Notes: generated by a model not told the origin, from the sequence alone. Counted from the stretch's first letter, positions 20,895-47,778 are shown. The stretch is 47,847 nt of DNA from Thioalkalivibrio denitrificans (GCF_002000365.1 NZ_MVBK01000048.1:2309-50155), one strand, 5' to 3'. Numbers and translations are program-made.

Positions 20895-20917
20895 TTCTCT
20901 GACTGAGGAATCGTTCC

Positions 20918-22475: not shown

Positions 22476-22511
22476 CGCATGTATGGGACGCGCCGTGCGC
22501 CACTGAGCTAA

Positions 22512-23341: not shown

Positions 23342-23359
23342 CCATATAGGAATCTCATA

Positions 23360-24796: not shown

Positions 24797-24801
24797 CAAC
24801 G

Positions 24802-24888
24802 GTATAACACTCGCATGCACTCGGCCATCGAAACGCGCCTCTCATACTTCGCTCTGCTTTTTCCGGACGGTGATGCGAAGCGTTATAC
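24802..24888 (+). other. attC site of the SEFIR cassette
   Basis: R'' GTATAAC (24802-24808) and R' GTTATAC (24882-24888) are exact complements. Inner boxes CTCGCATGC and GATGCGAAG pair with an extrahelical base. This is the cleanest attC in the window, 87 bp. Confidence 0.85.
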
Positions 24889-24904
24889 ATGGGGAGAAGG
24901 CTAA

Positions 24905-25045
24905 ATGCAGAAACTCATAACAAACGACAATCGGAATACTGGAAAGGAAAATCGTAAGTCCTGGCGGATTAAAGTTCGCGTGGGGATGTTCCGGAATTGC
25001 TTAGGGCGAGTGACCGTTCTTACGGCGGCGTCGTTGCCGCCCTGA
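24905..25045 (+). CDS. 46-residue hypothetical ORF
   Basis: It starts MQKLITNDNRNTGKEN after a good ribosome site (GGAGAAGG). The second half overlaps, out of frame, the Fic-like fragment. It may be a chance frame at the start of a decayed cassette. Confidence 0.25.
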   Translation: MQKLITNDNRNTGKENRKSWRIKVRVGMFRNCLGRVTVLTAASLPP

Positions 25046-25125
25046 TTGAACTAGGTGTCGTCGTGCCGGAGAGCACGCGTGCACCGCTACGCCTCGCCTT
25101 TCCGGCCAAGCTGGTGTCACAATGA
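24973..25125 (+). pseudogene. C-terminal fragment of a Fic-family protein
   Basis: A 50-codon open stretch without a start codon reads RGDVPELLRASDRSYGGVV, then ALIELGVVVPESTRAPLRLA and FPAKLVSQ. From memory this matches the C-terminal winged helix of one group of Fic proteins (ELLGxSDRxARR, STRAPLRLAFP). It is preceded by an in-frame stop and lacks the Fic motif. It looks like the residue of a lost gene between the last attC and qatA. Confidence 0.5.
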
Positions 25126-25179
25126 ATGCCGGCGCTATTCTCGGAGCAACACTAGATAAGGACTATGCAAAGGCACGCC

Positions 25180-29365: not shown

Positions 29366-30135
29366 CCTCCAAGTCCGCGCCTCAAGGCTATGATTTCCAC
29401 TGTCACATTGACCTCTATCCGGATCCGCCGGCGATGATTGCTGCTTGTGAGCGTGACAGGATACTGACCCTGGCCGTGACTACGACACCGAAGGCGTGGC
29501 CGCAGAACCGGAAATGGACGGCTTCAAGTAACTTCGTCCATGCAGCAGTAGGACTTCACCCGGAGCTCGTTGGCGAGCGCCATGAAGAAATCGATTTGCT
29601 CGAACAATATGTCGCAGAGTCATCCTTGATTGGCGAAATCGGACTCGATGGAAGTCCTCAGTATCGGGACAGTTGGGAGAATCAGAAGGATGTCTTTTCA
29701 CGGGTGTTGCGGAAGGCCCAGGCCCATGGTGGTCGTGTTGTCAGCATCCATAGCCGCCGTGCGACCACGGAAGTCGTGGAGATAATACAAGAACTCACGA
29801 CTCCTGACCATGTTATATGCATCTTACACTGGTTTTCCGGACCGAAGTCTGTTGCCATGCAAGCGGCGTCGGCGGGATGCTATTTCTCCATCAACAGCCA
29901 GATGTTCCAATCCAAACAGGGAACGGATATTGTCAAAACCTTGCCAATCGACAGACTGTTAACCGAAACGGACGGTCCGTTCACGAAGCTAGCCAACCGG
30001 CACAGCGTCCCGTGTGATGTATTGTCTTTACCAGAGCGCATAGCGGAACTGCGTAGTGCAAGTCGCCAGCAGATAAATGATGCGATCTCCCGAAACGCCC
30101 GATACGTATTGGAAAAGGCCGATATCCGTTTCTGA
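29362..30135 (+). CDS. qatD: QatD, TatD-like metal-dependent DNase of the Qat system
   Basis: 257 residues. TatD metal ligands are visible: H-x-H in DFHCHIDLY (~12-14), Glu in GEIGLDG (~95), His in SIHSRRA (~130), His in LHWFSG (~155) and Asp in TETDGPF (~205). TatD proteins are TIM-barrel nucleases. It overlaps qatC by 4 nt (ATGA) and closes the qatABCD operon. The active site looks complete, so the system is probably functional. Confidence 0.88.
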   Translation: MTSKSAPQGYDFHCHIDLYPDPPAMIAACERDRILTLAVTTTPKAWPQNRKWTASSNFVHAAVGLHPELVGERHEEIDLLEQYVAESSLIGEIGLDGSPQYRDSWENQKDVFSRVLRKAQAHGGRVVSIHSRRATTEVVEIIQELTTPDHVICILHWFSGPKSVAMQAASAGCYFSINSQMFQSKQGTDIVKTLPIDRLLTETDGPFTKLANRHSVPCDVLSLPERIAELRSASRQQINDAISRNARYVLEKADIRF

Positions 30136-30230
30136 CAAGCTACTGCGGAGTCCGGATCGCAATACGGCATCCACGATAAAGCCGCGAGAGGGATCATCAC
30201 CGAATGGCGGAGACGGGAACACCTGACTCC

Positions 30231-30276
30231 GGGCGCGCAGGGCTTAGAGCCCGGTCCGGTGCCACCGGACGCGCCC
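30231..30276. other. Perfect three-way-junction sequence
   Basis: GGGCGCG (30231-30237) pairs with CGCGCCC (30270-30276). Inside are two hairpins, GGGCT-TAG-AGCCC (30240-30252) and TCCGGT-GCC-ACCGGA (30255-30269). All three helices are perfect and use nearly every base. No T-tract follows, so it is not a simple terminator. It lies about 95 bp after qatD. Confidence 0.6.
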
Positions 30277-30381
30277 CAAGAGGGGAACTACAATTGACCA
30301 GTGAGACGATACGCCCCGTGCGGCCGTACAATGGTTACGTGCTGCTTCGCTCGCGTAAGGGCGATCCTGGAGATTCACCCT

Positions 30382-30897
30382 ATGACCGGCACTCAGTCGT
30401 CGAGGCCCACTAGCAACCGTATGCGCGCTTCTCGTGTGGATAAGTGTCGGGATCGGAAAGAATTGCGCGAGAGCCCGGCAATGAGGGCCTATGGCATTCT
30501 AACGAACAGGCGGTCTGATACTGGTGCCACCATCGAGTCAATAACCGAACATATCAAGAAGGGCCTTAATGTCATGGCGGTCCAGCACCTTGGAAGGTGT
30601 CTGGGTCTCTCTGTGAATGATGTCCTCGGGGTCATCAGGATGTCGCCGAGGGCATATGCCAGACGGCGGCATTCAGGTGCCTCTCTTGGACTTCTGTACT
30701 CTGATCGGGCCTATCGTATCGCGAGAGTTATCGTGCTTGCGGAGGAGGTATTTGGTAGCGGAGACATCGCCCACGACTGGCTCGTCTCGTACAATAGAGC
30801 GCTAGGCGCGAAGCCTTATGAACTGCTCGACACAGAAGTCGGTGTCGAGCGAGTAAGGACCGTACTTGGTCGGATAGAATTCGGCGTTTATAGCTAA
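30382..30897 (+). CDS. MbcA/ParS/Xre-type antitoxin (DUF2384)
   Basis: 171 residues. The C-terminal ~110 match the Xre/MbcA/ParS antitoxin layout: an N-terminal helix-turn-helix (LGLSVNDVLGVIRMSPRAYARRR), YSDRAYRIARVIVLAEEVFG in the middle and the C-terminal DUF2384 end (HDWLVSYNRALGAKPYELLDTEVGVERVRTVLGRI, split by helices). Such antitoxins normally precede a RES-domain NAD-consuming toxin; the next frame is not recognisably RES. The ATG at 30382 has GGAG 9 nt upstream; a shorter start at 30481 is possible. Confidence 0.8.
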   Translation: MTGTQSSRPTSNRMRASRVDKCRDRKELRESPAMRAYGILTNRRSDTGATIESITEHIKKGLNVMAVQHLGRCLGLSVNDVLGVIRMSPRAYARRRHSGASLGLLYSDRAYRIARVIVLAEEVFGSGDIAHDWLVSYNRALGAKPYELLDTEVGVERVRTVLGRIEFGVYS

Positions 30898-31048
30898 AAG
30901 GATTGGATTGGTTGCCGTTGACACTGGCATGGGAAGGCTTTGGCAGAGCGCTAGGGTCTCCCTGCCCAAAGCGGTGACGTACCGCTCTGAGGCATGGTGC
31001 CGCATGGGTTCTTGCCGCTGTCTCAACGACGCATCGCATGGTAGAAGA

Positions 31049-31402
31049 GTGGAGACAATTTACGAACAACACGAAAGGATGTTTCTGGAGGCGTGGAAGC
31101 ACGGTGTGCGCCTCGCTGGCCCGGAGTATTTTAACGTTTTAGTCCCTGACGTAGACGCAGCGACCGACAAGAACCAGCGTCGTCCCAACAGAGAGGCTAT
31201 CGAGGCCGTTATCGATGCTCTAGGTAGTGGGGAGAGTGTTTTCCTGGACAGCATGTACTCTTTCTACAATTCGGAAGTGAGGCATATGCTCCTAGAGAGC
31301 CTCGACCGGAAAATGGTGAATATCTGTGACATAGCAGCGGCATTGGACGGCGAGCGCAAAGAGGTCATTGGGGATTTACTGCGGTACTACCCGGGCTGGT
31401 AG
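31049..31402 (+). CDS. Hypothetical protein downstream of orphan antitoxin
   Basis: About 117 residues from GTG, or 164 from an upstream GTG at 30908. Acidic and helical; segments include HERMFLEAWKHGVRLAGPEYF and GSGESVFLDSMYSFYNSE. No RES motif. Position after the antitoxin suggests it could be a partner, but a 150-bp gap argues against tight coupling. The following 31403-31622 shows nothing. Confidence 0.4.
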   Translation: METIYEQHERMFLEAWKHGVRLAGPEYFNVLVPDVDAATDKNQRRPNREAIEAVIDALGSGESVFLDSMYSFYNSEVRHMLLESLDRKMVNICDIAAALDGERKEVIGDLLRYYPGW

Positions 31403-31622
31403 GGTTCAGGATCTCCAGCTTCGCTAGGAGTACCGCATGCTGCGATGCGATATCTCCGCTCGATGGACAGCCGTATGAGATGCCAACGGATGACGCGTAG
31501 TGAAGGCTCGCGGCCCTAAGTCTTATACAGTGGTCGCCAGTTGCGGAGGACCTGCGGCCCGCCTCCATGCCCTCGGATCCCGTAAGCCTTGAGCAGTCCC
31601 GCGAGCACGCGGTTCTTGCCAA

Positions 31623-32417
31623 TTAGTCGAGCGGACAGCCCAAGCGTTCCATGAGATCGCCATGATTGAACCTGACGATCACATCAGGGGCGGCATCAAG
31701 ACCATGAAAGAATCGAAGGCTCGTGCGCGATTCAATGTCTGACAATTGAGCCGACTTGGTGCAATGAGTGGCGTTTCGGGGTGTGCCCTGATCCATTACA
31801 AAGCCAGCCGCGAGAAGTTGACCATCACCAGCAATCGCGACAATCTTCCAGTAAGCGCTTGGGATCATGTGAGCCTTGTCCGTAGTCGGCAGCGAAGGCA
31901 TGGCCCGTTCATAAAGCGGCCCGGTCATGACGTAGACAGCCCCTGATTCATGGGAAAGAGCCCGCACCGCCGCTTCCAACCTTGCCCATGCGCCCTGGTT
32001 CAATGCGGCCGACTGCGGGGTTATGTTGGATAGCAGGTTCGTATCGGGCCAATAGCTTGTTCCTGAGAAACTCGCCAGTGGGGCTTGGTGGCCACGATCA
32101 GTCCCTAGTACGCGGTTCGCATCGCGGTAATCTTCCGGCGCCAGTGTTTCATGGTCCGCGAGGATAGGATCCTTTCGCCAGTTTCTGGCCTGGCTCCGCC
32201 CGATTGAGTCAGGCGTAACCCGATAGGCGACCCAATCAGAGAACTTCGTCAGATCATTGGAACTGAGAATATGCGTGGGGCGGATTATCAGGTCATTCCC
32301 TGAGGGAGACCCCGCGGGGCACCCATAGAGGCAGTGGGCAGGACTGTGAATTTCGAGGGCGAGCGCACCGGACAGGCCACAGAAAAGCAAGAGAATCGTC
32401 GACATGATCCTAGACAT
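31623..32417 (-). CDS. Exported DNA/RNA non-specific endonuclease (NUC1 family)
   Basis: 264 residues with a signal peptide (ILLLFCGLSGALALE). The NUC1 beta-beta-alpha-metal motif is visible as DRGHQAPLASF (~108-118), and the metal-binding Asn region as LLSNITPQSAALNQGAW (~130). By family it is a Mg-dependent nuclease of the Serratia type, secreted or periplasmic. It starts 3 nt after the csrA stop, so the two are probably co-transcribed. The start could also be the ATG four codons in. Confidence 0.88.
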   Translation of the reverse strand: MSRIMSTILLLFCGLSGALALEIHSPAHCLYGCPAGSPSGNDLIIRPTHILSSNDLTKFSDWVAYRVTPDSIGRSQARNWRKDPILADHETLAPEDYRDANRVLGTDRGHQAPLASFSGTSYWPDTNLLSNITPQSAALNQGAWARLEAAVRALSHESGAVYVMTGPLYERAMPSLPTTDKAHMIPSAYWKIVAIAGDGQLLAAGFVMDQGTPRNATHCTKSAQLSDIESRTSLRFFHGLDAAPDVIVRFNHGDLMERLGCPLD

Positions 32418-32420
32418 ACA

Positions 32421-32618
32421 TCATGCCCGCGGCCATATGTCTTTCTCGCTCTCGGTGGCGTCGTCTTGACGCTCAAGCAACTCACCCCGAAGAATCGTTA
32501 TGTGATCCGGGGCTTTGACCCCGACCTTCACCTGGCGCCCTTCAACATTTATCAGCGTGATTTCGATATCATCACCGATCAGGAGTGACTCACCTGGTCT
32601 GCGTGTCAGGATAAGCAT
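32421..32618 (-). CDS. csrA: CsrA/RsmA-family RNA-binding regulator on the island
   Basis: 65 residues. It reads as a near-standard CsrA: MLILTRRPGESLLIGDDIEI at the start, VKVGVKAP in the centre and ILRGELLER at the end; the conserved RNA-binding LTRR and late Arg are present. CsrA binds GGA motifs in leaders to block translation. ATG 32618 has GGAGG 8 nt upstream, itself a CsrA-like target. It lies upstream of and nearly adjacent to the nuclease gene. It is probably an accessory paralogue, as found on other integrative elements. Confidence 0.9.
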   Translation of the reverse strand: MLILTRRPGESLLIGDDIEITLINVEGRQVKVGVKAPDHITILRGELLERQDDATESEKDIWPRA

Positions 32619-32821
32619 AGACCGAACCTCCATGTCCGTAAGAGAAAAGGTTTGCGTCCCATGGCGGGACAAGACATCGTAACGTATGGCGTGCTGGAGT
32701 CAATATCGCTGGCCCAATTACCCAGGTTCGCGTTCCTCATCCTTGGGCGGGCTTCGCTTGAGGGCCGCAAGGGGGGATAATCGTTAGGGTGGCTCCCCAC
32801 CGGTCGATTCCGGGAGGAAAA

Positions 32822-33109
32822 ATGCGCACTAGGAACAAGCGGATCGTAGTTCATGTGACCAAGACCGAGCACGCCCGGATCACCAAGGGCGCGGAGCAGG
32901 CCGGCTTGTCTATCAGCGCATTCATGCGCCGCGCTGCCTTCGAGGCTCAGATCAAGGACGATGAATTGGCCCTGCTAGCGCTGATTGATGCCGTCATGGA
33001 GGGAACCGAACGGGCGGAGCGAGCCATAGACGATACCCTGGAACATGTTGCTCTTTCGAATCAGCGTATAAGTCGGATGGAGGCACGCGCTAGGCATCAC
33101 AGAGGCTGA
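32822..33109 (+). CDS. NikA/MobC-like ribbon-helix-helix mobilisation protein
   Basis: 95 residues. RNKRIVVHVTKTEHARITKG then AEQAGLSISAFMRRAAF is the NikA/MobC/TraJ-type pattern of relaxosome accessory proteins that bind oriT. A strong ribosome site (GGGAGG) precedes the ATG. No relaxase is in the window, so it would have to work with a relaxase in trans or is a relic. No definite oriT was found in the 200 bp on either side. Confidence 0.7.
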   Translation: MRTRNKRIVVHVTKTEHARITKGAEQAGLSISAFMRRAAFEAQIKDDELALLALIDAVMEGTERAERAIDDTLEHVALSNQRISRMEARARHHRG

Positions 33110-33229
33110 TATACGCTTGGCCCACTGGCTGTTAAGTGCTGTTGGCATGAATGCTCCGGACAGGCAAGGCTCAGGCGGACTCTAGTCAGACGTATCGCTT
33201 GGCGGGCGTGTGGCGCGAGGACAGCCGAG

Positions 33230-33364
33230 TCACATTTGGGTCTTCTCGTGTTCACCGATGAACCCGGAGGCAGTCGATCCGGCCCATCGGACACGTAACA
33301 CGACTCCCGGCCCTCGACACTCGAGTAGCTTCAGCGCACCCGGGGCAAGAGGTCGGACTTTCAT
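33230..33364 (-). pseudogene. Decayed ParE-like toxin
   Basis: A 44-codon frame begins 8 nt after the parD stop, where parE normally starts. MKVRPLAPGALKLLE resembles the first helix of RelE/ParE toxins (V-x-x-L-A-x-x-A-x-x-D-L); the remainder does not fit and ends early. I read this as a frameshifted or truncated parE. Confidence 0.4.
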
Positions 33365-33372
33365 CTCAAGCC

Positions 33373-33624
33373 TCAGGGCTCGCGTTTTGCCTTCGTGGCT
33401 TGGCGAACGTGTTCGCGTAGGCTAGAGAAATACGCTCTCCCAGCGGGTTTCGCCGGCGCCGACGCTGCGCCGGCAAGCAGCTGGTCGCGCAACCTCTGCC
33501 GGTCCTGGTCGCGCCCGATGAGCGCACAAACATACTCATTGTGTGTGTCATAGCCACGCCGTCGGACCTGTTGGTCGACGAAGGCCGCGAGGCCGCTGGG
33601 TACGGGAATACGCAGTTTTCTCAT
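33373..33624 (-). CDS. ParD-like ribbon-helix-helix antitoxin
   Basis: 83 residues. An N-terminal ribbon-helix-helix (MRKLRIPVPSGLAAFVDQQV, RGYDTHNEYVCALI) is followed by a flexible toxin-binding tail (RQRLRDQLLAG, SLREHVRQATK), the ParD layout. ParD neutralises ParE, a gyrase inhibitor. The downstream toxin appears broken, so it is probably an orphan antitoxin. Confidence 0.7.
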   Translation of the reverse strand: MRKLRIPVPSGLAAFVDQQVRRRGYDTHNEYVCALIGRDQDRQRLRDQLLAGAASAPAKPAGRAYFSSLREHVRQATKAKREP

Positions 33625-33648
33625 AGCCGGAAGCTAGATGCTAAAGCA

Positions 33649-33878
33649 GGAGTTGGCAAGACCGAGATGATCAGCCGGCGAGGACCTTGGCGCAACATTG
33701 ATGCGGTCGAGTACGCCACCCTTGAATGGCTGGAATGGTTCAACCACCGCCGGCTGCTGGAGCCTATCGGCAACATCCCGTCGGCAGGGTTGGAAGCGGC
33801 GTATTATCGCCAACAGGAAGAGTCGGCCATGGGGCATGACACAAACAAACTGGTCTCCGGAAAACCCGGGGCGGTTCA
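33649..33878 (+). mobile_element. IS3-family insertion sequence remnant (3' end)
   Basis: The frame reads KTEMISRRGPWRNIDAVEYA then WLEWFNHRRLLEPIGNIP and YYRQQEESAM, the C-terminus of IS3-family OrfB with its last catalytic-core residues. The right end GGTCTCCGGAAAACCCGGGG (33852-33871) continuing to CGGTTCA at 33878 is a typical IS3 terminal inverted repeat. The 5' part of the element is missing. Confidence 0.8.
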
Positions 33879-33919
33879 GAGTGCCACGAGAACCCCAGGT
33901 GAGGAATCGGTGGTAGAGA

Positions 33920-34087
33920 TCATCGTTCTGGCTTGTGACTGAGTGAATCTAGATAGTTGTCACGGAAATCTTCCCCATCGTCTTTCTTCTTTACCTTAGA
34001 AGGCGCTGCCGACCAACGAGCCGAGTGCTTGGTGCTCGTAAGGAAGAGCCCCTTTATACGCTTGCTACGCTTCTTCTTCCTGCCCAT
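33920..34087 (-). CDS. Small basic protein downstream of hsdR
   Basis: 55 residues with a very basic N-terminus (MGRKKKRSKRIKGLF) and a charged tail. It begins 14 nt after the hsdR stop, in the same orientation, with an AGG-type ribosome site. It could be the last gene of the restriction operon, perhaps nucleic-acid binding, or a chance frame. Confidence 0.35.
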   Translation of the reverse strand: MGRKKKRSKRIKGLFLTSTKHSARWSAAPSKVKKKDDGEDFRDNYLDSLSHKPER

Positions 34088-34101
34088 TTGAGAACCTGGC
34101 C

Positions 34102-37100
34102 TTAGCCTACCGCCCAATCTGCCGACAGGACCTCCGCCTGCTGCAAAACCGTCTGAACAGCCGCCTCCTGAAGATCAGGTGGATACCCGTATTTGCGCAA
34201 GATCCGCTTAACCAGCACACGCAGGCGTGCGCGAGCGGACTCACGATGTGCCCAATCCACTGATACATTCTCCCGTAAGCTCATCAGAAGCTCGTGGGCG
34301 ATGACACGCAGTTGTTCGTCGCCCATGACTTCGACTGCGGATTGGTTCTCCGCCAGGGCATCGTAGAAGGCGACTTCCTCTTCCGACAGCCCCTGCTCTT
34401 CGCCTCTATGCCGCGCGGCCTTGATGTCCTGGGCAAGTTGGATCAGTTCCTGGATAACTTCTGCGGTAGTAACGGCGTTGGCATGGTAGCGTGCTATAGC
34501 ATCTTCCAGGCGGTCCGTGAAAGCGCGGGTCTCCACCACGTTACTGCGGCTCCGTGAGCGGATACTGTCATTGAGCAGCTTGCGCAGGGCCTCCAAGGCC
34601 AGATTCTTCTTCTCCATCTCCTGCACTTCGACCAGGAACTCATCGGACAGGATGGAGATATCCGGCGTCTGAATCCCGGCAGCTCCCAGGATGTCCACGA
34701 TCTCGGTGGAAACCACGGCCCGGCTGATGATCTGTTGCACGGCCAGTTCCCGATCCTGGCGCGATGCCCCAGCGGCGGCAGACGATTTCACGAGCGCGGC
34801 GCGCACAGCCTGGAAGAATCCAACTTCGTCACGAATGGCGCGGGCCTCATCGGAGCTGGAGGCCAGCGCAAACGCACGAGACAACGCGAGCACCGCATCT
34901 GCAAAGCGACGGTGTGCCCGTTTCTTGCCCTCTGGTGTGGCCTCTGCGGCCGCCCACTCCTGCTGCTTGGTCAGAATCCACTCAATAGCACCTGCCATCG
35001 TGGCAAGACGATGTTGTGGCGTTCCGCCCAGTGCTGACAGATAGTCATACCCGTGGAACATGGCGCGCACGATATCGTACTTCTCCAGAAGAACGGCCAC
35101 TGCCTCGGCTTCATCGATCCCGGTCTTGTCCTGGTCGGGCTTGGAATACTGTGCCAGTGCAGACTTGAGATTCTGGGCGATACCGATGTAATCGACTACC
35201 AGACCGGCCGGTTTGTCTCGGAATACACGGTTCACGCGAGCGATCGCCTGCATGAGTCCATGACCCCGCATTGGCTTATCGATATACATGGTGTGCATGG
35301 AGGGTGCATCGAAGCCGGTCAACCACATGTCCCGCACGATCACGAGCCTGAGCGGGTCCCCAGGATCTTTGGCACGCTTCGCCAGGAGATCGCGTCGCGC
35401 TTTGTTGCCGATGTGCGGCTGCCACTCTGCCGGGTCGCTGGCTGACCCTGTCATCACGATCTTGACGCTACCCGCATTGTCATCGTCGCTATGCCAGTCT
35501 GGGCGCAGTCTGATGATCTCAACGTACAAGGCCACGCAGATACGTCGGCTCATGCACACAACCATAGCCTTGCCATCCAACGCTGCCACACGATCCTCGA
35601 AATGCTGAACTAGGTCGGCGGCAACCAAGGCCAAGCGCTTCTTGCTGCCTACCAAGGCCTCGACCGTCGACCATTTCTGCTTGGCGCGCTCGGCGCTGGG
35701 CTCGTCCTCATCTTCCAGCAGGGCTTCGATTTCTGCGTCGATGTTCGGCTTCTCGTCCTCATCCAGTTCGATCCGAGCCAGTCGGGATTCGTAGTAGATG
35801 GGCACGGTGGCGCCGTCTTCCACCGCCCGGCTGATGTCGTAGATGTCGATGTAATGACCGAAAACCGCCGGGGTGTTGACGTCCGTGGCCTCGATGGGGG
35901 TGCCAGTAAATCCGATAAAGGAGGCGTTGGGTAGTGCGTCACGTAGATACTTGGCGAAACCGTAGGAGACTTCACCCGTCTTGGCATCCACCTTGGCACG
36001 AAAGCCGTATTGGCTGCGGTGGGCCTCATCCGCGATCACCACCACATTGGCGCGGGTGGTCAGTGGTTCGTCGACCTCTCCGAACTTCTGCAAGGTCGTG
36101 AAGATCACACCGCCAGAAGCTCGGTTGAGCAGCTCCCGCAGGTGCTCGCGGCCCTCGGCCTGCACCGGCGTCTGGCGGATCAGGTCGCGGCAAGCCGAAA
36201 AGGTAGTAAACAACTGATCGTCCAAATCATTGCGGTCAGTGAGCACCACAAGGGTCGGATTCTCCATGCGGGGCTCGAAGACCAGCATGCCCGCATAGAA
36301 GGCCATCAACAGGCTCTTGCCTGAACCCTGGGTATGCCAGATCACGCCCGCCTTGCGGTCCCCCAAAGGCTGGCTGCCCAAGTCATATTCGGCGGGTAGC
36401 TCGGCTGCCCCCTGGACGCTGGCCCGAAGCGTGGAGATGACCGCTTTTCTCACCGCGTGGAACTGGTGATAGCCGGCGATGATCTTGATGAGCCCGTCAG
36501 GCCGCTCGCTGAACACCGTGAAGTGACGCAGAAGTTCCAGAAAGCGCCCCTTCTCAAATACCCCCTCGACCAACGTACCCAACTCCGGCGTGCCCTTTGG
36601 CTCGATACGCTTGCCGTCCGTGGTTCGCCAAGGCATGAAGCGCTCAAGATCGGCGGAAAGGGAGCCCACACGTGCAGACAGCCCATCAGAAGTCAACAAG
36701 AGCGCATTGCTGCGAAACAGAGCCGGAATCTGTTGCTTGTAAGTCTGAAGCTGGTTGAAGGCGCCGGTCAGTGTTGCGGTCTCTCCACCAGGCGCTTTCA
36801 ACTCGATGACCGCCAGAGGCAGACCGTTGACGAACACCACCACGTCCGGGCGGCGCTTGTAATGTCCGGCCACCACAGTGAACTGTTGCACTGCCAGCCA
36901 GTCATTGCGCTCTGGCTGATCGAAGTCGACCAATTGGACCTTGCCGGCGGTGAGCACCCCGTCCTCGGCGTAATACTCGACATCCGCCCCATCGGTCAGC
37001 AGCACGTGAACTCGGCGGTTCTCTTCCAATAGGTTGGGCAGTTCGGATTGGGTCAGTCGGCGCGCTACATCTGCAAGGGCATCGGGTGGAAGCGTTGGGT

Positions 37101-37275
37101 TCAGTCGAGCCAGGGCGGCTTCCAGCCGCGCCTTCAACACCACCTCATCGTAGGCCTCGCGTTCTGGCTGCTTTCCATCAGGCCCGATGATCTCGTCGGA
37201 GGTGCAGGCGTAGCCCAGTTCGGCGAGCTGATCCAGCAGCGCAGCTTCAAGTTGGGCCTCAGAAAGGAAGGCCAT
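34102..37275 (-). CDS. hsdR: Type I restriction endonuclease, HsdR subunit
   Basis: 1057 residues, full length. The N-terminal nuclease domain contains the E-L-K element ([10 protein letters not shown], ~175). The SF2 translocase has Walker [12 protein letters not shown] (~325), the DEAH box [10 protein letters not shown] (~415), GFTGTP and a late [18 protein letters not shown] motif. HsdR cuts DNA after ATP-driven translocation when the HsdMS complex meets unmethylated sites. The ATG overlaps the hsdS stop by one base. Nothing looks broken. Confidence 0.95.
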
Positions 37276-38685
37276 CAGACAACTTCCTTGACGTTCATGT
37301 CTGCGCGCTTAAGGAGTTTCTCGGCATCCCTAATGCGTAGCTCGCCGGAGATCAATTTGGGTAGCAGGGTGTCTCGGACTTTGGCTAAGTCAATATTCTC
37401 ATTATTTGCCACCTTTCCCATTATGGGTTCGACAAATGCTACGAAGGCATTCAATACATCTTCGCCGGGAACCAACACGCTCTCAGCTTCCAAAAAATGG
37501 GCCGTCTGAAAATTGGAGATTCCGGTGCTCTGATTCTGGTACTCCCAAGTGCCACCTTCGCGATACAAGTTGGTCATATGGCACGCAGCTAGAATACCAA
37601 GGCTGGCGCTTTTGGGCCGAAACCTGCGACAGAAGCTGGCGCATACGACCGGGTGCGGAAATCGGTCGAGCATCGAGTTCGATACTCGTAACGATCTGCC
37701 GGTCGGTTGTGTTGAGCTTCCACCAGATACTTCGACAACTATATCCCCATCCTGAAGCATTCGAGATATAAGTTTCTTCTTTGTTGTGAAGCGTGTAGGT
37801 ACTTTGCCAGTGGACCCCGAAGCCAAGTCCGGAATATCAGTTCCTCTGATAATGCAAATTGCCTGGTCATGGCCATCTTCGGGTTGTTCTTTTCCCCAAT
37901 CACCGCCGATGGTTCCTTCGATCAATCTTCCAAATGACAGGAACTCCCATCCTTCCGGCTTCCCCGCCTCGTCGAGCCGTTCGGGGAAGAGCTGCCAGAG
38001 GTCGGCGGGCAGGTAGGGTTTGCGGCCTTCCATCTTGGCGCGGACGGGGCCGATGTCGACGAACCAGTCCTTAAACAGGGCGCGGACCATGGCCTCCAGG
38101 GTCTGATTGCGGCGGCGGTTGAGTTCGATCTTGTCGTCCAGCGTGCCGAGGATGTGGGCGATGGCGCGTTGTTCATCTATGTCCGGGGGGTGCGGGACAA
38201 TCACGCTACTAAGGAGCGAAGTATTAAGCGAAGGCATCGTCGCGCCGACCGCTATCGCGCGGATATGGTCTCTGAATGCGGGAAGCCCGAAGAAGTAGGA
38301 GAGGTAGGAAGAATCGATCTTTGCAGGGTCTGGGCGTACTCGTAAGCATCGGCCAGAGAACATCCAGCCATTCTCTTCACCTCGCACCAAGGCGCGGCGA
38401 TCAACAGAGCCCACACGACTGAAGACAATGTCCCCCTCCCGAAGTAGGTAGCGCGATAGCCGGTCTCGGTCAGCGTCGGAAACCATAGGCAGTTCGCTAT
38501 GCAGGATCCGATTCTCGCCAAGATGTTCGACAGTGATAATCGGTGTACCTTTCGGAACGTAGTCCTTTTGATGCAACTGGCTTCCGAATGGGCCGGTCTG
38601 GATTCCCGCAACCGAATCACAAAGGTTGGCGAGTTGATCCACTACAAAATCAGCGGCAAATGCCCCGTAAGGCGTCTCGCGGAAC

Positions 38686-38696
<11 letters not shown>
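37275..38696 (-). CDS. hsdS: Type I restriction-modification specificity subunit HsdS
   Basis: 473 residues with two target-recognition domains. TRD1 is at ~20-180. The central conserved helical spacer contains [29 protein letters not shown], read in two parts. TRD2 follows at ~250-400, then a C-terminal helix ([17 protein letters not shown]). It sets the DNA sequence recognised by the complex. ATG 38696 has GGGAG upstream and overlaps the end of hsdM by 11 nt. The recognition sequence cannot be read from the protein. Confidence 0.92.
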
Positions 38697-40248
<1,552 letters not shown>

Positions 40249-40392
40249 CAGATTGTCCCCGGCGTCACGGCAGGGCAAACCCGCCCCCTGGGCGCCCCCC
40301 TTTGCAAGCCTGGAGGCCCGCCCGAGGAAGGCCCCCGAGCCTCCACACCTGCCGTTTCAGCAAAATTATTCTAATAATCAGTCCGTTGAGAT

Positions 40393-40408
40393 AGGACACA
40401 TGTGTCCT
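40393..40408. promoter_or_regulatory. 16-bp perfect palindrome upstream of hsdMSR
   Basis: AGGACACATGTGTCCT is self-complementary; TTGAG on the left and TCAAC on the right extend its symmetry imperfectly. It lies 145 bp before hsdM, next to an AT-rich stretch (40365-40380) that could hold the promoter. Likely a repressor site. Confidence 0.55.
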
Positions 40409-40576
40409 CAACGCGCCCTCACTATACCGAAGCGTCGCACCCGATTGCAGCCCCACGTACTCACCCCATGGGCGCGGGTGCGACGATCCGCAAAACCGCC
40501 GCGTCGCTCCCCTCTGCCATCGCCGCATGCCCGACCCGAGGCGCAAGGCCCCCCGCCGACCCGTCGCGCACTTTAT

Positions 40577-41302
40577 CTAGTGGAAATCCACCCCTTCCAG
40601 GAAATGCCCGCCGTCGATGGTGAGCACATTGGTATAGATCTCGGTGCTGTCGATGGACTTGTGCCCGAGCAGCTGGCTGACGTACTTGAGCGGCCGCCCG
40701 TGCAGCAGCAGGTGGATGGCAAAGGAGTGGCGAAAGGTGTGGCTGCTGATCGAAAACGGCGCCCCCCCGACCCGCTCGACCAGGGCCCCGATATGCCGAT
40801 TGACCGTCTGGCGGGTCATCGGGAAGAGCCGCTGGCACTTTCTGAACCGCCCCGCGTACAGATAACTCTGGACGCGGTCCTGGAGCAGGCGATCGACGAT
40901 CGGCACGTAGCGCCGGGGCGAGCGTTGCAGCGCGGCCCTGCTGGGGCGCCCCGGGCGCTGCTTCAACGTCTTTAGGATCACCCCGAAATCGTAGCCGTCG
41001 TGGATAAAGCTTGCGGGCGTGAGCGCGAGCACCTCCGAGATGCGTGCCCCGGTGGTCCACATCAGATCGAGGATCAGGCGGTAGGTGGGGTGTTTCTCGG
41101 CATCGAGCAGGCCCAGGACCTCGGGCTTTAACAGGTAGACCGGCATGGCATCGATGGTCTCGAGCACGGTGGGGCGTTTGGCGATCAGCCGTGCCCAGTC
41201 GATGCGCACCGACTGGATCGGGAAGGCGGCCAGGGGCTCCTCGCGCGGGTGAAAGAGCCGTTGTGGCCTGGGGCGGGGAAATTGGGCGTCGGGCAGCGGC
41301 AT
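40577..41302 (-). CDS. Tyrosine recombinase (phage-integrase family)
   Basis: 241 residues. Catalytic residues are present: Arg in TTGARISEVLAL (~85), a Lys-bearing VILKTLKQRPG strand, H-x-x-R in SSHTFRHSFAIHLL (~200), His in LLGHKSIDSTEIYTNV and the Tyr nucleophile within it. The N-terminal core-binding domain is short, so it may be a resolvase or plasmid-type recombinase rather than a full integrase. It lies apart from the recombinase trio but in the same direction. The start at 41302 is chosen over 41311 because AGGGA is too close to the latter. Confidence 0.85.
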   Translation of the reverse strand: MPLPDAQFPRPRPQRLFHPREEPLAAFPIQSVRIDWARLIAKRPTVLETIDAMPVYLLKPEVLGLLDAEKHPTYRLILDLMWTTGARISEVLALTPASFIHDGYDFGVILKTLKQRPGRPSRAALQRSPRRYVPIVDRLLQDRVQSYLYAGRFRKCQRLFPMTRQTVNRHIGALVERVGGAPFSISSHTFRHSFAIHLLLHGRPLKYVSQLLGHKSIDSTEIYTNVLTIDGGHFLEGVDFH

Positions 41303-41311
41303 ATGCACCAT

Positions 41312-41808
41312 TTCCCTAAGTCACCTTGGTACACCCCGCGACGGATTTTTCCACCCCGGGATCGCGCCGTTTAGGCGGATTATAGCCCGAAAAACGGTCC
41401 CCAAGAGCTTGCACCACAATACCCGTAAAGGGTGCAAGTCTCGAGAAAATACCCCCGACCTCGATGATGGTGCGCACGTGCGCCAGCGCAGGCTCCCGGG
41501 AGAAAGGCCTCACCGACAGATCCCGTGGACCCCGAAGGCGCAATAACCCCTCACCAGCCCTTGCGATCGGCACGGCGGGATACGCTTGGCCTTGGCAAGG
41601 AGACGCTCAGGGCTCGCGCCACCCCCACCATAGCGGCCATGGCGCGCCACTAGGGATCCGGTATTGGGTGATGGCTGCGTGTTCTGAGCGCACAGCGATC
41701 CCGCTTCGAGCACAAACGCGCCGAAGCTTTGGTGGGCAAGCTCACTCAAGGGGCGGGCTCTGAGAAAATGGCCCGTGGGAAAAATGCGCTTTGCCCCCCC
41801 CGGCCTAC
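41312..41808. other. Intergenic region without a recognised feature
   Basis: About 500 bp between the small gene after gmtX and the tyrosine recombinase. Open frames here look like GC shadows. I see no tRNA, attC or clear terminator. It may hold the recombinase promoter or its binding site. Confidence 0.3.
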
Positions 41809-42057
41809 TCAGTATTTAAGGTGGGGCACACTAGCTTCCATCATTTTCAAGTGACGAAGGCCTCCTTTCCCTTCACTGGCCTCGGTGCCTCTGCACAAGC
41901 TGGGGGTTAGTCGCAACCTTTCTTTTCTTAAACCGCACGCTCGCAACACTGCCGACATGTTTGGCGCGCCGTCCGCGTTCACAGGCACAGGTTCACGTTT
42001 GTTTTCTTCGATCTTGAATACCGCCTTGATCTCATCCGCGCCCTTCTGTTCAGTCAT
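41809..42057 (-). CDS. Small hypothetical protein coupled to gmtX
   Basis: 82 residues, starting MTEQKGADEIKAVFKIEENK, basic in the second half. The ATG overlaps the gmtX stop by 8 nt (ATGACTGA), so it is translated with the trio. No family recognised. It could be an accessory or directionality protein of the integration module. Confidence 0.5.
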   Translation of the reverse strand: MTEQKGADEIKAVFKIEENKREPVPVNADGAPNMSAVLRACGLRKERLRLTPSLCRGTEASEGKGGLRHLKMMEASVPHLKY

Positions 42058-42649
42058 TACTGAATAAGTCCTGGCGAGAACCCCACGTTGGGTGGCTACG
42101 CAGCCATCTCGCGAATCGCCCAATGGCCTCCCCAGAAGCGACGATCGGATCGCGGCCACGCTCCGGGAATCTATCCTCAATCCAGGCTCTTCTCTCGTTT
42201 ACTCGAACGGAACCGTGAGATCGCAGCATGATCTGTACAAGAACATGGTAAAGCTCCATGATCATTGACTCCCCTGCTCCGATGGGTGCCAGCGCCTTCG
42301 ACTCGCGCTCCCTCCCTCGGAGATTACGCTTCAACTCAGCGTTTTCCGCTCTAAGCAACGCGAGCTTGGTACGGAGTATGAACTCGTCCGCGACGTCGTC
42401 CGGCACCTGTGTTGGATCGATTGCCTGTGATCCGAAAAACTTGACGACGCGGTGATATGCTTCCGCATTACGATAGGGGCGTAACGTCGATCGGGATACG
42501 CCGGAGAATACCGACACACTCCTCAGAAGCTCCGCGAGCGTGTTGTAGCTACGGCCACTCGACTGAATCTTTCGGAGCGTCTCTTCGACCGCCTGTACTG
42601 TCTGGTTACGAACCCTATCGTAATTCGGATTGGCCGCCTTACCGGGCAT
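42050..42649 (-). CDS. gmtX: GmtX-like protein of the recombinase trio
   Basis: 199 residues. A winged-helix-like N-terminus (VEETLRKIQSSGRSYNTLAE, GVSRSTLRPYRNAEAYHRVV) is followed by a coiled coil (LALLRAENAELKRNLRGRERE), the layout of the small third proteins of Tn554-like and gamma-mobile-trio modules (TnpC/DUF6262-like). It starts 6 nt after the gmtZ stop. It probably binds DNA or the recombinases at the element ends. The name rests on synteny and size rather than on a verified family match. Confidence 0.65.
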   Translation of the reverse strand: MPGKAANPNYDRVRNQTVQAVEETLRKIQSSGRSYNTLAELLRSVSVFSGVSRSTLRPYRNAEAYHRVVKFFGSQAIDPTQVPDDVADEFILRTKLALLRAENAELKRNLRGRERESKALAPIGAGESMIMELYHVLVQIMLRSHGSVRVNERRAWIEDRFPERGRDPIVASGEAIGRFARWLRSHPTWGSRQDLFSND

Positions 42650-42655
42650 TTGCTG

Positions 42656-45600
42656 TCATTCCTCGTCTTTGCGCACGAGCTGCTTGAAGGCATCCGGCCC
42701 CGCGAAGGATCGCGCCGTAAGCGATTCCCTATGCTGATCGAGCTGCCGGATAAGCTCCGTAGTCGAGATCCCCTGAGCGTCCATACGCGTTGCCAGGTGG
42801 GAGCACAGCTCGGCGACCGGATCCGCTTCTCCCTCGAAAACCGGCTCCTCTGCGCCAAGCATAATCCGCTTCAGCCGCGCGGCAATTTGACGCACCTCTT
42901 CATCCTGCATCGATGGATACGCGTTGCATTCGCTGATGCGCTGAAGAATCCGAGCAGACTCCGACTTTGGAAGCGTGGCCCTGACTAGGTGACGCTTCAG
43001 CATTTCGGGCTGATCCACGTGATACTCGCTGACCCGAATCGATCCGCTGCGCAGCTTAAGGAGCTTTTGCTCGAGTACCGTTTCCGCAAGGTGCCAGCCG
43101 AGGGCCTCGGTCGCGTCCATATCGGCCGCATCGAAAAAACGCTGCGCTTCATCATGCGAACCGCCACGGAAGATCTGCTCCGCACGCTTGCTAGCCGCGC
43201 GGGCCCGGGATTCCAGGGACCGAATCTTCGCCCTGATGGCAGGAAGCTGATCTACCGATTTCACTGCGTAACGGCAGAGGCCGCAGCGATGCGGCTCTTT
43301 CAACTCGTCTACCACGTCCTTGGGACAATGACCAGCAAGCGGGCACAAGTGCGTGTCGAAATACGCAATGGATGCATCGCTCGCTATCCGCAGGGCCGTG
43401 AGACCGTCGTTCTTCGGTCTACTTTCGTCGTCACCAAAAGTAACCGTCGTGAAGCCGAAGACCATCTCTGCGTCTTTGCGGTCTTTGTCAAGGGCACGGC
43501 GGAGCGCAGAATTCGGGAGCGCCGACTGAATATACGCGGGGTCATCTCGGCTGAACCCAAAACGCGCCACAGGCTCCATCGGCAATTGGTTTAGAAGCCG
43601 ATGCAGCTCTTCTTCATCGACTTGGTGATAGTAGGCAGTAGTCTCTTCGTTGCGGTGCCCTGCCAGAAGACCGACCAGCCGGATGGGCAATACACTCATA
43701 CGCTCGCTGATCACAGTCGAGCGTATGGAGTGCGGTGTATATATCGATTCGGTCTGTTCTGTCGCGTACCTACGCGAACCCGCGAGGATCTCGCTCATAT
43801 CCTCACCGTCCCTGGGCGTAACGAGCTCTACCTCCTCCCCCGTCTGTTCTCTGAGCCATTCGCCGAACAAGGCAAGTATCACACGGAAGAGTTTCCTGTA
43901 GCTGCTATCTGGCAAGACCCCAAAGTTTCGCCGGGTCGAAGAGGACGCATAAAACAGCGTATCAACAGGGTCGAAACGGCTATGCTTCCGCCCCATATAG
44001 AGAACGGGTTCAGGGGTGCCCCCAGCAAGAATGCGGGTGACGACCGCGAGCTGGCGTCCCAAGATGGAGTAAGCCTCATCCGAGACAGGCAAGGGGAACC
44101 CCGACCCCGCTTTATCGGTGTTCACATAGATGCGTTTACATAGGGTTGGGCGCTTCTCATCCTGATATGAGAGCGACTCTCGTCCGAGCCAGCGTATGTG
44201 GGCCCCTCGCAGACCCGTCTCCATCATAAGACACAAGAGTCTTAGACTGCTGAGATTTGGCCACCGGGCATCGATCTGGAAGTTAACGACGAAGTCAGCC
44301 GTATGAAGGTTGTAGGCTGCCGGCACATCTTCGATCGGGAGCACCCTGCCGTGGCGGAACACGACCGGTATATAGCCGTATGCCTCGGCTTCGAGCGTTG
44401 TTGGAATCGGTCGGAGAGGCAAGGAATGCGAGTCGCCTCCCAAGAAATCACACTCCAGCTTGGTGAAGAAAGCCTCAATCCCAAGCAGGTAGTCACAGAG
44501 CAGCTCCGCGTGTCGCTTCCCCAGCCTGATCCGCGCATGACGGCGCCTATTAGCGCCTTTGTAATGAAAATCCTTAGCGCGAATGGGATTCTGGAATCCT
44601 TCTTCAAACAAATCTGCCTGCAACGCGGTGCCCTTGTGCTCCTCGATTACCCAGTCGAACAAGTCCATCGCCGCGTGCATTGCGCCCGCTCTGGCTATCG
44701 GCGCGGATGGAAAGCGCTTCAAGAGAAACTCTTGGAACGTCAGAGGGTGCTCACCCGTCTTCGGGATGGCCCCCTTTTTTATGTGTATGTAGCGTTGAAC
44801 TTGCCCCGGCCGTTGGGGAAACTCATGATCTCTCGCCTCATACCTATGGCACCACCAATTGAGGTAAAGAAAAAGATAATCGCTGAACGCACGCAGGTTC
44901 CTATACTTGCCGTCGCTTTCGTAGTGCGTTTGCCAGTCTTCAAGAAAGCCGTCGAACAGGCCAGTCCATACCAGACCGCATTCACGTACTGGGAGGTCTT
45001 CCCAGCCGGGGCGGACTGACACGGCACCAGGCCATCTGGCTTGCGTTTGGTCCGCTTCCCGTGCATGGACCAAATGAGCGAACAGGACGTCTTCACGCCG
45101 ACTCTTGCTAGCAGGAATGTACATTTCCGCGAATTCGTCCGGAAAGCGGGGGCTAGCAGAATCCGTTGGCGCTCTGGATAGTGCGAGCACCATGTTCAGC
45201 GTTTGTGGGTAGTTTTCTACATCCTCCTTTGCGATTGAGACCTTCGCCGCGAGACCGGCGGTGAGTTCATGCAGCAGGATGCGAAAAGGTATCGGCGGAA
45301 TCGGGTAGTCGTTCTTCCCATTCCTCGCTAGGAGCTTGGACTTGCGCCAATGGGCATGAACTGCTGCCAGTTCGGTAAGGTTGAACCGGTCCCACTTTGT
45401 CCAGTCTGTGGCCCAGAACAGTCGCTTGGTATGTTGATTCACGTTCTCACGTTCAGAGTCTAAATAATTGCCCGCTTCCACCACCTGCCTAAAATCCCGC
45501 ACTGTCTCTGGTTCGTACCGATGTAGTTCCTCGACTTTCAGGTTCGGCGCGATATAAGGGTTCAATATCACATGCCCATGCCGCCACAGATAAAGCAGTA

Positions 45601-45961
45601 CTGCGGCAAATCCCCGAAAGAGACCTGAGTACTGAGTGGGCGGAACACCAAGGCGCGGGTCGACTCCTAGGGCACTTGTTATGGATGCTGCTGACCGCTG
45701 CTGCGGATTCATCAGCAGCGCATCCATAAGTCCTTGTAGTGCGCGGGACGGATGTTCGGGACCAACACTGTCCTTAAGACATCGTTCGAACATCCGAAGG
45801 AAGCCGCACTGGGAACTCCTATTCTGCTGAGGAGAGTTCACATAGCGGCCATGCAGCTGCTCATGTAGATTCTTCGCATCGAGGACGGCATTACGGATCG
45901 CCGCCCGGAGTTGGCTCTCCTCTTCTGTCAGGATGAGAATGTTTCGACTGAGATTGATCAT
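42656..45961 (-). CDS. gmtZ: GmtZ-like large tyrosine recombinase
   Basis: 1101 residues, far longer than usual integrases. A C-terminal-half tyrosine-recombinase domain is visible: Arg in METGLRGAHIRWLG, H-x-x-R in YTPHSIRSTVISERM, and G-H then Y in LLAGHRNEETTAYYHQV. A Cys-rich segment (HLCPLAGHCPKD, HRCGLCRYAV) and a long coiled coil follow the catalytic part. In the gamma-mobile-trio, GmtZ works with GmtY and GmtX. The ATG at 45961 is preferred; a GTG at 46000 overlapping gmtY is possible. Confidence 0.75.
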   Translation of the reverse strand: MINLSRNILILTEEESQLRAAIRNAVLDAKNLHEQLHGRYVNSPQQNRSSQCGFLRMFERCLKDSVGPEHPSRALQGLMDALLMNPQQRSAASITSALGVDPRLGVPPTQYSGLFRGFAAVLLYLWRHGHVILNPYIAPNLKVEELHRYEPETVRDFRQVVEAGNYLDSERENVNQHTKRLFWATDWTKWDRFNLTELAAVHAHWRKSKLLARNGKNDYPIPPIPFRILLHELTAGLAAKVSIAKEDVENYPQTLNMVLALSRAPTDSASPRFPDEFAEMYIPASKSRREDVLFAHLVHAREADQTQARWPGAVSVRPGWEDLPVRECGLVWTGLFDGFLEDWQTHYESDGKYRNLRAFSDYLFLYLNWWCHRYEARDHEFPQRPGQVQRYIHIKKGAIPKTGEHPLTFQEFLLKRFPSAPIARAGAMHAAMDLFDWVIEEHKGTALQADLFEEGFQNPIRAKDFHYKGANRRRHARIRLGKRHAELLCDYLLGIEAFFTKLECDFLGGDSHSLPLRPIPTTLEAEAYGYIPVVFRHGRVLPIEDVPAAYNLHTADFVVNFQIDARWPNLSSLRLLCLMMETGLRGAHIRWLGRESLSYQDEKRPTLCKRIYVNTDKAGSGFPLPVSDEAYSILGRQLAVVTRILAGGTPEPVLYMGRKHSRFDPVDTLFYASSSTRRNFGVLPDSSYRKLFRVILALFGEWLREQTGEEVELVTPRDGEDMSEILAGSRRYATEQTESIYTPHSIRSTVISERMSVLPIRLVGLLAGHRNEETTAYYHQVDEEELHRLLNQLPMEPVARFGFSRDDPAYIQSALPNSALRRALDKDRKDAEMVFGFTTVTFGDDESRPKNDGLTALRIASDASIAYFDTHLCPLAGHCPKDVVDELKEPHRCGLCRYAVKSVDQLPAIRAKIRSLESRARAASKRAEQIFRGGSHDEAQRFFDAADMDATEALGWHLAETVLEQKLLKLRSGSIRVSEYHVDQPEMLKRHLVRATLPKSESARILQRISECNAYPSMQDEEVRQIAARLKRIMLGAEEPVFEGEADPVAELCSHLATRMDAQGISTTELIRQLDQHRESLTARSFAGPDAFKQLVRKDEE

Positions 45962-45986
45962 CTCGATTCTTTCTGGCCTACGCCAT

Positions 45987-47372
45987 CTAAGAAGCGTCAC
46001 TCAGCAGACGTTTGGCTTCGCGGATGTGGCCTTCGGCGAGGGCCTCTCGAAACGTCCGCGGATCGAGCCCAGCGCGCCCGTAGAGGCGGCGCCCCGCATT
46101 CAGGACCGCGTCGATCTTATGCTTCTCATGCCGTGCATAGTGCATCGTCGTCGACAATTGTGCGTGTCCCATTAAGCGCTGGACTACGGCCAAGTCCAAA
46201 CCAACTCCTCCGTCTTCGCGTGGGCAGTGATTCACCATATAGACCCCATAGGAATGGCGCAGCGCGTGAAGACCATAGCCGCGACCGTTTACCAACGGGA
46301 TCCCAGCTCGCCGTTGCGCCCGCTTAAACGAGTGATCACGAGCCTTATCCGTTGCGGTAAACAGAGGCTGCCCACGAGCTGCGTCTGCTTTTAGCTTAAC
46401 GAAGAGGTAGCTATGTGGGTCCTGCACCAAGTGCCGTCGCTCTGTCTCGAGATAGCGCACGACATAGTGAAAAAAGAGGCGTTCGTAACCTGGCCAGAAG
46501 TAGACATAGCGTGCGGATCGACCCTTGCGGCGAAGCTCACCGCGCGTAGGAGTCACCCCGTAAATGAAGTCGTGCAGATCGACTTGTTGAATGTCGAAGT
46601 TAAGCGCTGAAATCCTGAGCTGGAGTGCTTCGTGCGTACGGAGTCCTCCGCAGGCGAGAAGTGTATACAGCGCTTTGTCACGGTAGGATTGGGCAGCCTC
46701 GATAACCAAGCCCAACCGATCAAGGGGGAATTCATGGTGACCATCATCCCAAGGCTCCACGCGTTGTTTAACCAACCAGCGACGCCGTTTCTTTAGCATT
46801 TGGGCTGCATTGCGAATGACTCCGCCGAGCATGCTGTTCTGGCGGATACACGCAATCTCACGGGGATGTCGTACCGGCAGCCTGGACAGGCTCCCAAGGA
46901 GGGCGTCGTAAGGATTCCGGTGTACCGAAACACCTTGATTTGTCAGCGCCTCGAGTACCTCCTCGTAAAGATCCTCACATTCCTCGAGAAAGTTGGTGAT
47001 TGCGGTGAGCTTGAGGTTCGCGGACCTAGGAAGCACTGGAAGTTTGTGAGGCAGGCTCTCTCCTATCTCCCGCAGCCATTGGGATCGGACGTGTCGCCCT
47101 CGTTCAAGAAGGGACTTATAGCCCTCGAGTAGCTCACGAGCCCGTTTTGAGGTAGTGGTGACCTCTTCGAAGGCCCGGGCTTCATACAAATAGTCAATGA
47201 ACTGTGCAACTGCGGTGGAGTAGGCGCGTCTGGACTCGTAACACAACCGGTCTCTTAGCCCATCCTGCCAATAACCAAACGCCGAAACCTGACCTTGAGG
47301 CCCCGTTAGGACCCATTGGATCTTGCCATTTGCCCCAGACTCTTGGGCAAGTACGCAATGCTTCAGCGCCAT
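45987..47372 (-). CDS. gmtY: GmtY-like tyrosine recombinase
   Basis: 461 residues. The catalytic pattern is complete: Arg in ACGGLRTHEALQLRI, H-x-x-R in LHALRHSYGVYMV, His in LMGHAQLSTTMHYARH and the Tyr within it. First gene of the trio; the next gene begins about 25 bp after its stop or overlaps it. ATG 47372 has AGGA 8 nt upstream. The gene starts 151 nt after the island tRNA-Lys in the same direction with no clear terminator between, so read-through from the tRNA promoter is plausible. Confidence 0.78.
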   Translation of the reverse strand: MALKHCVLAQESGANGKIQWVLTGPQGQVSAFGYWQDGLRDRLCYESRRAYSTAVAQFIDYLYEARAFEEVTTTSKRARELLEGYKSLLERGRHVRSQWLREIGESLPHKLPVLPRSANLKLTAITNFLEECEDLYEEVLEALTNQGVSVHRNPYDALLGSLSRLPVRHPREIACIRQNSMLGGVIRNAAQMLKKRRRWLVKQRVEPWDDGHHEFPLDRLGLVIEAAQSYRDKALYTLLACGGLRTHEALQLRISALNFDIQQVDLHDFIYGVTPTRGELRRKGRSARYVYFWPGYERLFFHYVVRYLETERRHLVQDPHSYLFVKLKADAARGQPLFTATDKARDHSFKRAQRRAGIPLVNGRGYGLHALRHSYGVYMVNHCPREDGGVGLDLAVVQRLMGHAQLSTTMHYARHEKHKIDAVLNAGRRLYGRAGLDPRTFREALAEGHIREAKRLLSDAS

Positions 47373-47523
47373 TACCCCTTTCCTCACACGCACCACGCGC
47401 ACAAGGGCAGGAGTATAGAACGGGAATCAGGACACGCAACCCACGGGAGTAGCGTGTGCACCGAAGAAAAAGCGCATCCATCCGGGGCAATTATCAGGCA
47501 ACTACTTGTTTTATTTAGAAATG

Positions 47524-47596
47524 TGGGCCGTGTAGGACTCGAACCTACGACCAAGAGATTAAAAGTCTCCTGCTCTACCAACTGAGCTAACGGCCC
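47524..47596 (-). tRNA. tRNA-Lys (anticodon UUU), island-borne replacement
   Basis: 73-nt cloverleaf on the minus strand. Acceptor GGGCCGT pairs with ACGGCCC; the anticodon stem GGAGA/TCTCT carries loop CTTTTAA with anticodon UUU; T-stem GTAGG/CCTAC closes TTCGAGT. The genomic 3' sequence is ACATTT, not CCA, so CCA must be added enzymatically, whereas the interrupted host copy encodes CCA. It lies inside the island, between its recombinase genes and the right junction. Confidence 0.95.
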
Positions 47597-47651
47597 ATAG
47601 CAAACCTATTTTACCGCCACTTCATGCGCACACACATACGACTACAGATAA

Positions 47652-47707
47652 GAACCTACGACCAAGAGATTAAAAGTCTCCTGCTCTACCAACTGAGCTA
47701 ACGACCC
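47652..47707 (-). pseudogene. 5' fragment of host tRNA-Lys (right island junction)
   Basis: The first 56 nt of a tRNA-Lys(UUU): acceptor GGGTCGT, D-arm, the same anticodon arm, variable loop and T-stem up to GTAGGTTC. Then island sequence begins. The acceptor cannot pair locally; its partner ACGACCC is at the left junction. Together the two pieces total 76 nt. Confidence 0.92.
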
Positions 47708-47750: not shown

Positions 47751-47778
47751 ATCTTACTATCCTGCCCTCAAATGACAA
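47751..47778 (-). promoter_or_regulatory. Promoter of the host tRNA-Lys
   Basis: On the minus strand -35 TTGTCA (47773-47778) and -10 TAAGAT (47751-47756) are spaced 16 bp and followed by a GC-rich discriminator, as in stable-RNA promoters. After integration it drives the truncated 5' half and then the island tRNA. Confidence 0.7.

Follow-up and report, generated by a model that had tools for sequence, protein, structure and literature searches.

The DNA analysed here, referred to as the window, is a stretch of 47,847 nt from Thioalkalivibrio denitrificans (NZ_MVBK01000048.1:2309-50155). Close to its right end, four open reading frames, termed Y, Z, X and ORF4, follow each other on the minus strand (Table 1). 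There are 25 nt between Y and Z and 6 nt between Z and X, while X and ORF4 overlap by 8 nt (ATGACTGA); ribosome-binding-like sequences are found upstream of Y, Z and X. The arrangement is in agreement with the first-pass annotation of the window, which had described one operon made up of a recombinase trio and a coupled fourth gene of 82 residues, overlapping X by 8 nt. For Z, an in-frame GTG further upstream, at 46000, would extend the protein to 1114 aa. The codon usage of ORF4 is best in its own frame, with a small margin over one reverse frame.

Table 1. Features of the window, with positions counted from its first nucleotide.
Feature	Position	Strand	Basis or remark
Host tRNA-Lys(UUU), 3' half, ending in the attachment core	14618..14641	-	rejoins to a perfect tRNA-Lys
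Core GAACCT, left copy, 6 bp	14636..14641	.	
Whole integrated element, 33,010 bp	14642..47651	.	ends, 6-bp cores, flanks colinear with the G748 empty site
Left terminal repeat TTATCTTTACACG	14642..14654	+	10/13 against the reverse complement of the right end
bSEFIR defence protein	23333..24796	+	PADLOC, 5e-125
QatABCD defence system	25165..30135	+	PADLOC
Type I restriction-modification, HsdR, HsdS, HsdM	34102..40278	-	PADLOC
ORF4, 82 aa	42057-41809	-	position occupied by VPA1267-family genes in GMT islands
X, small helical protein at the GmtX/TnpC position, 199 aa	42649-42050	-	
Z, large tyrosine recombinase, 1101 aa	45961-42656, ATG start	-	catalytic boxes
Y, tyrosine recombinase, 461 aa	47372-45987	-	Pfam Phage_integrase, 1.8e-17
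Carried complete tRNA-Lys(UUU)	47523..47596	-	acceptor pair 4:69 C-G, without encoded CCA
Right terminal repeat CGACTACAGATAA	47639..47651	+	10/13 against the left end
Core GAACCT, right copy, 6 bp	47652..47657	.	
Host tRNA-Lys(UUU), 5' half	47652..47707	-	rejoins to a perfect tRNA-Lys
Promoter-like site TTGTCA-16-TAAGAT, sigma-70-like	47751..47778	-	upstream of half-tRNA, carried tRNA and operon

Y and Z each contain the complete set of tyrosine-recombinase motifs (R..HxxR..GH..Y). The catalytic boxes of Z read LRGAH, PHSIR and GHRNEETTAYY, with the HxxR box starting at 741 and the GH..YY box at 765, and C-terminal to them lies a cysteine stretch, C873-x5-C-x13-C-x2-C (residues 873-896). The expectation of two tyrosine recombinases of very different size, one of them with a Cys-rich C-terminal region, is thereby borne out. 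X had been described as a winged-helix/coiled-coil protein. A structure model calculated from the single sequence, with no alignment, is mostly helical, but at a pLDDT of 44, a very low confidence, it is too poor to be used, and the winged-helix fold stays a candidate assignment. A third tyrosine recombinase of 244 aa, XerC/D-like and with a short N-terminus, is encoded outside the operon, between the latter and the type I restriction-modification genes (40577-41311); it could function in hsdS switching or be a relic.

The operon occupies one end of an element that reaches well past the interval of 41809-47372 considered initially. Read inward, the right end (47651-47639) is TTATCTGTAGTCG, which agrees with the left end at 10 of 13 positions; the terminal inverted repeats are thus imperfect, and 1.8e-4 of random pairs are equally good. 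Both ends are bordered by the 6-bp core GAACCT, identical on the two sides. Accordingly, the attachment site proposed beside the operon was located there, and the circular junction predicted in the first-pass annotation, CGACTACAGATAA-GAACCT-TTATC, fits both ends. The element has a G+C content of 56%, compared with 62% in the left flank. The contig stops just right of the insertion site, within a repeat family: the last positions (47792-47847) are taken up by a repeat of ~56 bp with ~20 copies elsewhere in the genome, perhaps the terminus of an insertion sequence.

The sequence TGTAGGACTCGAACCT, the 3' part of a tRNA-Lys, is present twice, within an intact tRNA gene (47531-47546) and directly at the left end (14626-14641). 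If the element and one core are removed, the flanks join to GGGTCG...ACGACCCACCA, a perfect tRNA-Lys(UUU) including the CCA. The rejoined gene is identical to the one at the uninterrupted, colinear site of the congener G748, and the joined flanks can be aligned with this empty site from end to end, with 86% identity over both flanks. Based on this match, the host tRNA-Lys gene is split in its T-arm, the core corresponding to AGGTTC on the tRNA strand. Of the promoter-like site upstream of the 5' half, the -10 region and the stretch downstream of it are conserved in the G748 empty site. No other tRNA-Lys gene interrupted at this position was detected by a pattern scan. In a further congener, G747, a tRNA-Lys(UUU) on contig C77 (locus L128, 1501-1549) is cut at about position 28 and its 5' part is replaced by foreign sequence, possibly by a different integrated element or at an assembly edge.

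A complete tRNA-Lys(UUU) lies between Y and the right end of the element, in the same orientation as the broken gene. Only two differences separate it from the host gene: the acceptor pair 4:69 is C-G and not U-A, and the CCA is absent. The paired change indicates a coherent, separate gene and not a patched copy or a repair product. Lacking an encoded CCA, the carried tRNA, which is presumed to be functional, needs CCA addition, while CCA ends are encoded by 36 of the 39 different tRNAs recorded in this genome, a point against its role as a replacement. A scan of the draft assembly (167 contigs) with the tRNA family model and ARAGORN revealed no intact tRNA-Lys(UUU) besides the carried copy, and one tRNA-Lys(CUU). 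As the draft lacks several expected tRNAs, for instance those for Ile and Tyr, a second tRNA-Lys(UUU) may lie in a gap; the split gene was probably the only one the cell had for this lysine tRNA. One near-identical copy (99-100%) of the host tRNA-Lys is present in each of the congeners G748, G749 and G750. G748 additionally contains at least 14 tRNA genes arrayed on another contig, C2, among them a diverged 74-nt tRNA-Lys(UUU).

A tRNA gene as target together with a tRNA fragment is what most tRNA-inserted islands present (PMC8371274, PMC4383910), and the same picture could result from a standard integration, in which the attachment site of the element repaired the gene and a displaced fragment was left behind, so that the intact tRNA would be the host's own. 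In that case, however, the host 5' half would be followed by a restored 3' part, while it actually joins the end sequence of the element. Moreover, each end has one of two complementary fragments, to which the intact tRNA is added as a third, separate gene, distinguished by its acceptor pair. The position of the half-genes and the empty site in G748 effectively rule out a tRNA-restoring integration, which we regard as extremely improbable. Islands in tRNA genes normally bring along the end of the gene and so make it whole again, whereas the present element leaves the gene disrupted and provides an entire tRNA.

Taken together, we consider it likely that the window contains a site-specific integrative element of 33 kb, with a recombination module of the Tn554/GMT type, which splits the tRNA-Lys(UUU) gene and brings a replacement. 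Its ends, cores and gene order, the split gene, the empty site and the carried tRNA, the only intact copy found, can all be read directly from the DNA; the recombinase genes, distantly similar to those of gamma-mobile-trio (GMT) islands and Tn554, presumably moved the element. The cargo is in line with a defence island, comprising a PDC-S45 protein (PADLOC) in addition to the systems given in Table 1. A NikA-like mobilization protein (32789-33109, Pfam 1.2e-12) is also encoded, hinting at transfer in trans. Furthermore, group II intron RNA matches lie inside the element at 18726-18997 and 19290-19364 (RF02005, RF00029).

The operon had initially been considered to fit the GMT islands, and a search with the Gmt models had been suggested as a check. 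Its outcome went against membership: Y reached 49.1 bits with the GmtY model NF040693 (cut-off 340) and Z 23.4 bits with the GmtZ model NF047926 (cut-off 600), and X gave no match to the GmtX model NF040692 at E<=1, while real GmtZ and GmtX proteins passed their NCBIfam models in a scan of this kind. For comparison, eleven true GMT loci were considered, one from the genome G112 of the same class and ten from plasmids. They show the order gmtY-Z-gmtX that is also seen here, with one annotated member missing in two of the ten plasmid loci. In several, a VPA1267-family gene (NF040697) comes fourth, and in Marinobacter pMAQU02 this gene overlaps gmtX by 8 nt, just as ORF4 overlaps X. The 82-residue gene, noted as previously unnoticed, thus has precedents in its position; it gives no match to NF040697, and its profile similarity is weak.

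Profiles that we built from GMT proteins were compared as well. The similarity of Y is significant, but only by way of the general recombinase domain, and XerA scores higher. For Z, similarity is confined to the surroundings of the catalytic box, where none of 40 shuffled sequences reached the score. A likeness between the Cys regions of Z and GmtZ, suggestive by eye, was discarded, as 8 of 200 shuffles reached its score and chance was not clearly beaten. X resembles GmtX at a borderline level (2-3 of 200 shuffles), and ORF4 shows a weak similarity to VPA1267, reached by 1 of 200 shuffles with hhalign and 7 of 200 with HMMER, which makes this resemblance only suggestive. These borderline profiles, the common gene order and sizes, the translational overlap, the same catalytic boxes in Z and the defence cargo would also be expected of a true gamma-mobile-trio island, in which Y, Z and X are diverged forms of GmtY, GmtZ and GmtX and ORF4 is a VPA1267 protein. 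We find this reading conceivable but rather doubtful, given the distance to the curated cut-offs, the generic nature of the similarity of Y and the result for the Cys region of Z. Since the GmtY and GmtZ models stay far below their cut-offs and GmtX does not match, the operon is, as far as sequence comparison can tell, a remote GMT/Tn554-type module and not a GMT member. What remains of the original interpretation is a module of two recombinases and a small protein, which lies at one end of a defence-carrying island, next to an attachment site, and has the gene order of GMT islands.

Single-protein searches with Y, Z and X retrieved no relatives of Z or X from 369 genomes of the class, 398 of the phylum and 47 of the order, nor from PLSDB plasmids, phages and viral contigs, and a scan of genome contigs with Z peptides gave no relative either; module and ends are thus seen together in this one element. 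A single weak match of X, located inside parB, was dismissed as a chance hit. The lack of relatives in these searches, together with the finding of no second copy of the element in the genome, would be compatible with a dead element, whose operon is a relic and whose carried tRNA does no more than keep the cell alive. Nevertheless, all four frames are open and lie close together or overlap, Y and Z are catalytically complete by their motifs, and the ends and cores are intact, with the same core on both sides; a dead element thus seems unlikely to us.

For an active element, the following course of events can be proposed. Y and Z would exchange strands across the 6-bp spacer GAACCT in the conserved T-arm of tRNA-Lys(UUU), their catalytic role being deduced from the motifs. 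By analogy with Tn554, the strand-biased circularizing integrative elements (SEs) and the GInts, the circular junction and the T-arm would receive staggered cuts 6 nt apart. X probably, and ORF4 perhaps, assist Y and Z; as the counterpart of TnpC and Srap, X would be required, and ORF4 may be a directionality factor, as suggested in the first-pass annotation. Integration would leave the 5' half of the tRNA gene on the right and the 3' half on the left, and the function of the cell would be preserved because a whole replacement tRNA-Lys(UUU) is carried inside the right end. Since the replacement and the broken gene have the same orientation, the host promoter points through the 5' half and the replacement tRNA towards the operon, and read-through from this promoter into the carried tRNA and the operon may take place. 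Nearly all tRNAs have the motif GGTTC in their T-arm. The 6 bp taken along from the last target would therefore match the next one, so that excision could restore the gene, and the carried tRNA, which has the same T-arm, is predicted to be a possible new target itself. Movement could occur by cut-and-paste or by an SE-like copy-out, both of which are compatible with the two identical cores.

The element may furthermore represent an undescribed lineage of the GMT/Tn554 type, which uses the T-arm of a single-copy essential tRNA as its exchange site, carries the replacement and has both the replacement tRNA and the operon driven by the host promoter. The island would then own an essential tRNA, could be lost only by precise excision, and would carry a fresh target at which copies could stack. 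We regard this as a real possibility that falls just short of being probable. Tying a defence island to an essential tRNA would stabilise it in its host. The word tRNA does not occur in the SE and GInt papers according to a text search, and our limited literature search, a weak kind of evidence, yielded no description of a whole replacement tRNA in an element of the Tn554, SE or GMT type.

Tn554, SEs and GInts are known to have imperfect terminal repeats and a 6-bp spacer (PMC10214605, PMC5385486). With Tn554 (tnpA-tnpB-tnpC), whose two recombinases and small protein are required for transposition, the present element shares a pair of tyrosine recombinases accompanied by a third, small protein, as well as site specificity, a short footprint and imperfect terminal repeats, while the fourth gene, the 1101-aa Z, the 33 kb with defence cargo and the tRNA target are different. 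In common with the SEs (intA-tfp-intB-srap) it has an ordinary and a large recombinase, the replacement of the target gene, as for bcp in SE-6283 (PMC9345347), and the 6-bp spacer next to the terminal repeats, GAACCT standing at both ends; in contrast to them, no tfp separates the recombinase genes. The GInts (ginABCD) resemble it in the multi-recombinase operon at one end, the small helical protein, the 6-nt staggered exchange and the large cargo, but their operon encodes three integrase-type proteins instead of two, and their known targets include an ABC transporter gene, compared with a tRNA gene here. The comparisons with Tn554 and GInts are based on published descriptions. RITs consist of three tyrosine recombinases of about 315-410 aa (PMC10214605), to which the Y-Z-X-ORF4 operon does not correspond. 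The GMT islands have the same gene order and sizes, an ordinary and a large, Cys-bearing tyrosine recombinase, a coupled fourth gene and defence cargo, whereas the proteins described here fail the Gmt models and the end sequences differ.

The GMT island of G112 splits greB, with the halves at 115079-115414 and 134173-134322 on its contig C9, and carries an intact greB directly behind gmtX; in the GMT island of Halomonas pTHAF12_a, greB also follows gmtX. In our element, by contrast, a tRNA gene is targeted and its replacement precedes Y. Elements of the SE-6283 type split and carry bcp (PMC9345347), and Tn552-II, a relative of Tn554, carries a gene resembling its target gene, for which a rescue role has been proposed (PMC12486829). 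The element presented here fits the same habit, with an RNA gene. These four cases suggest a rule, according to which elements with paired large and small tyrosine recombinases disrupt conserved genes and compensate for this by supplying an extra copy. Such a rule would provide a computable signature for the ends and targets of these islands, which are otherwise hard to delimit.
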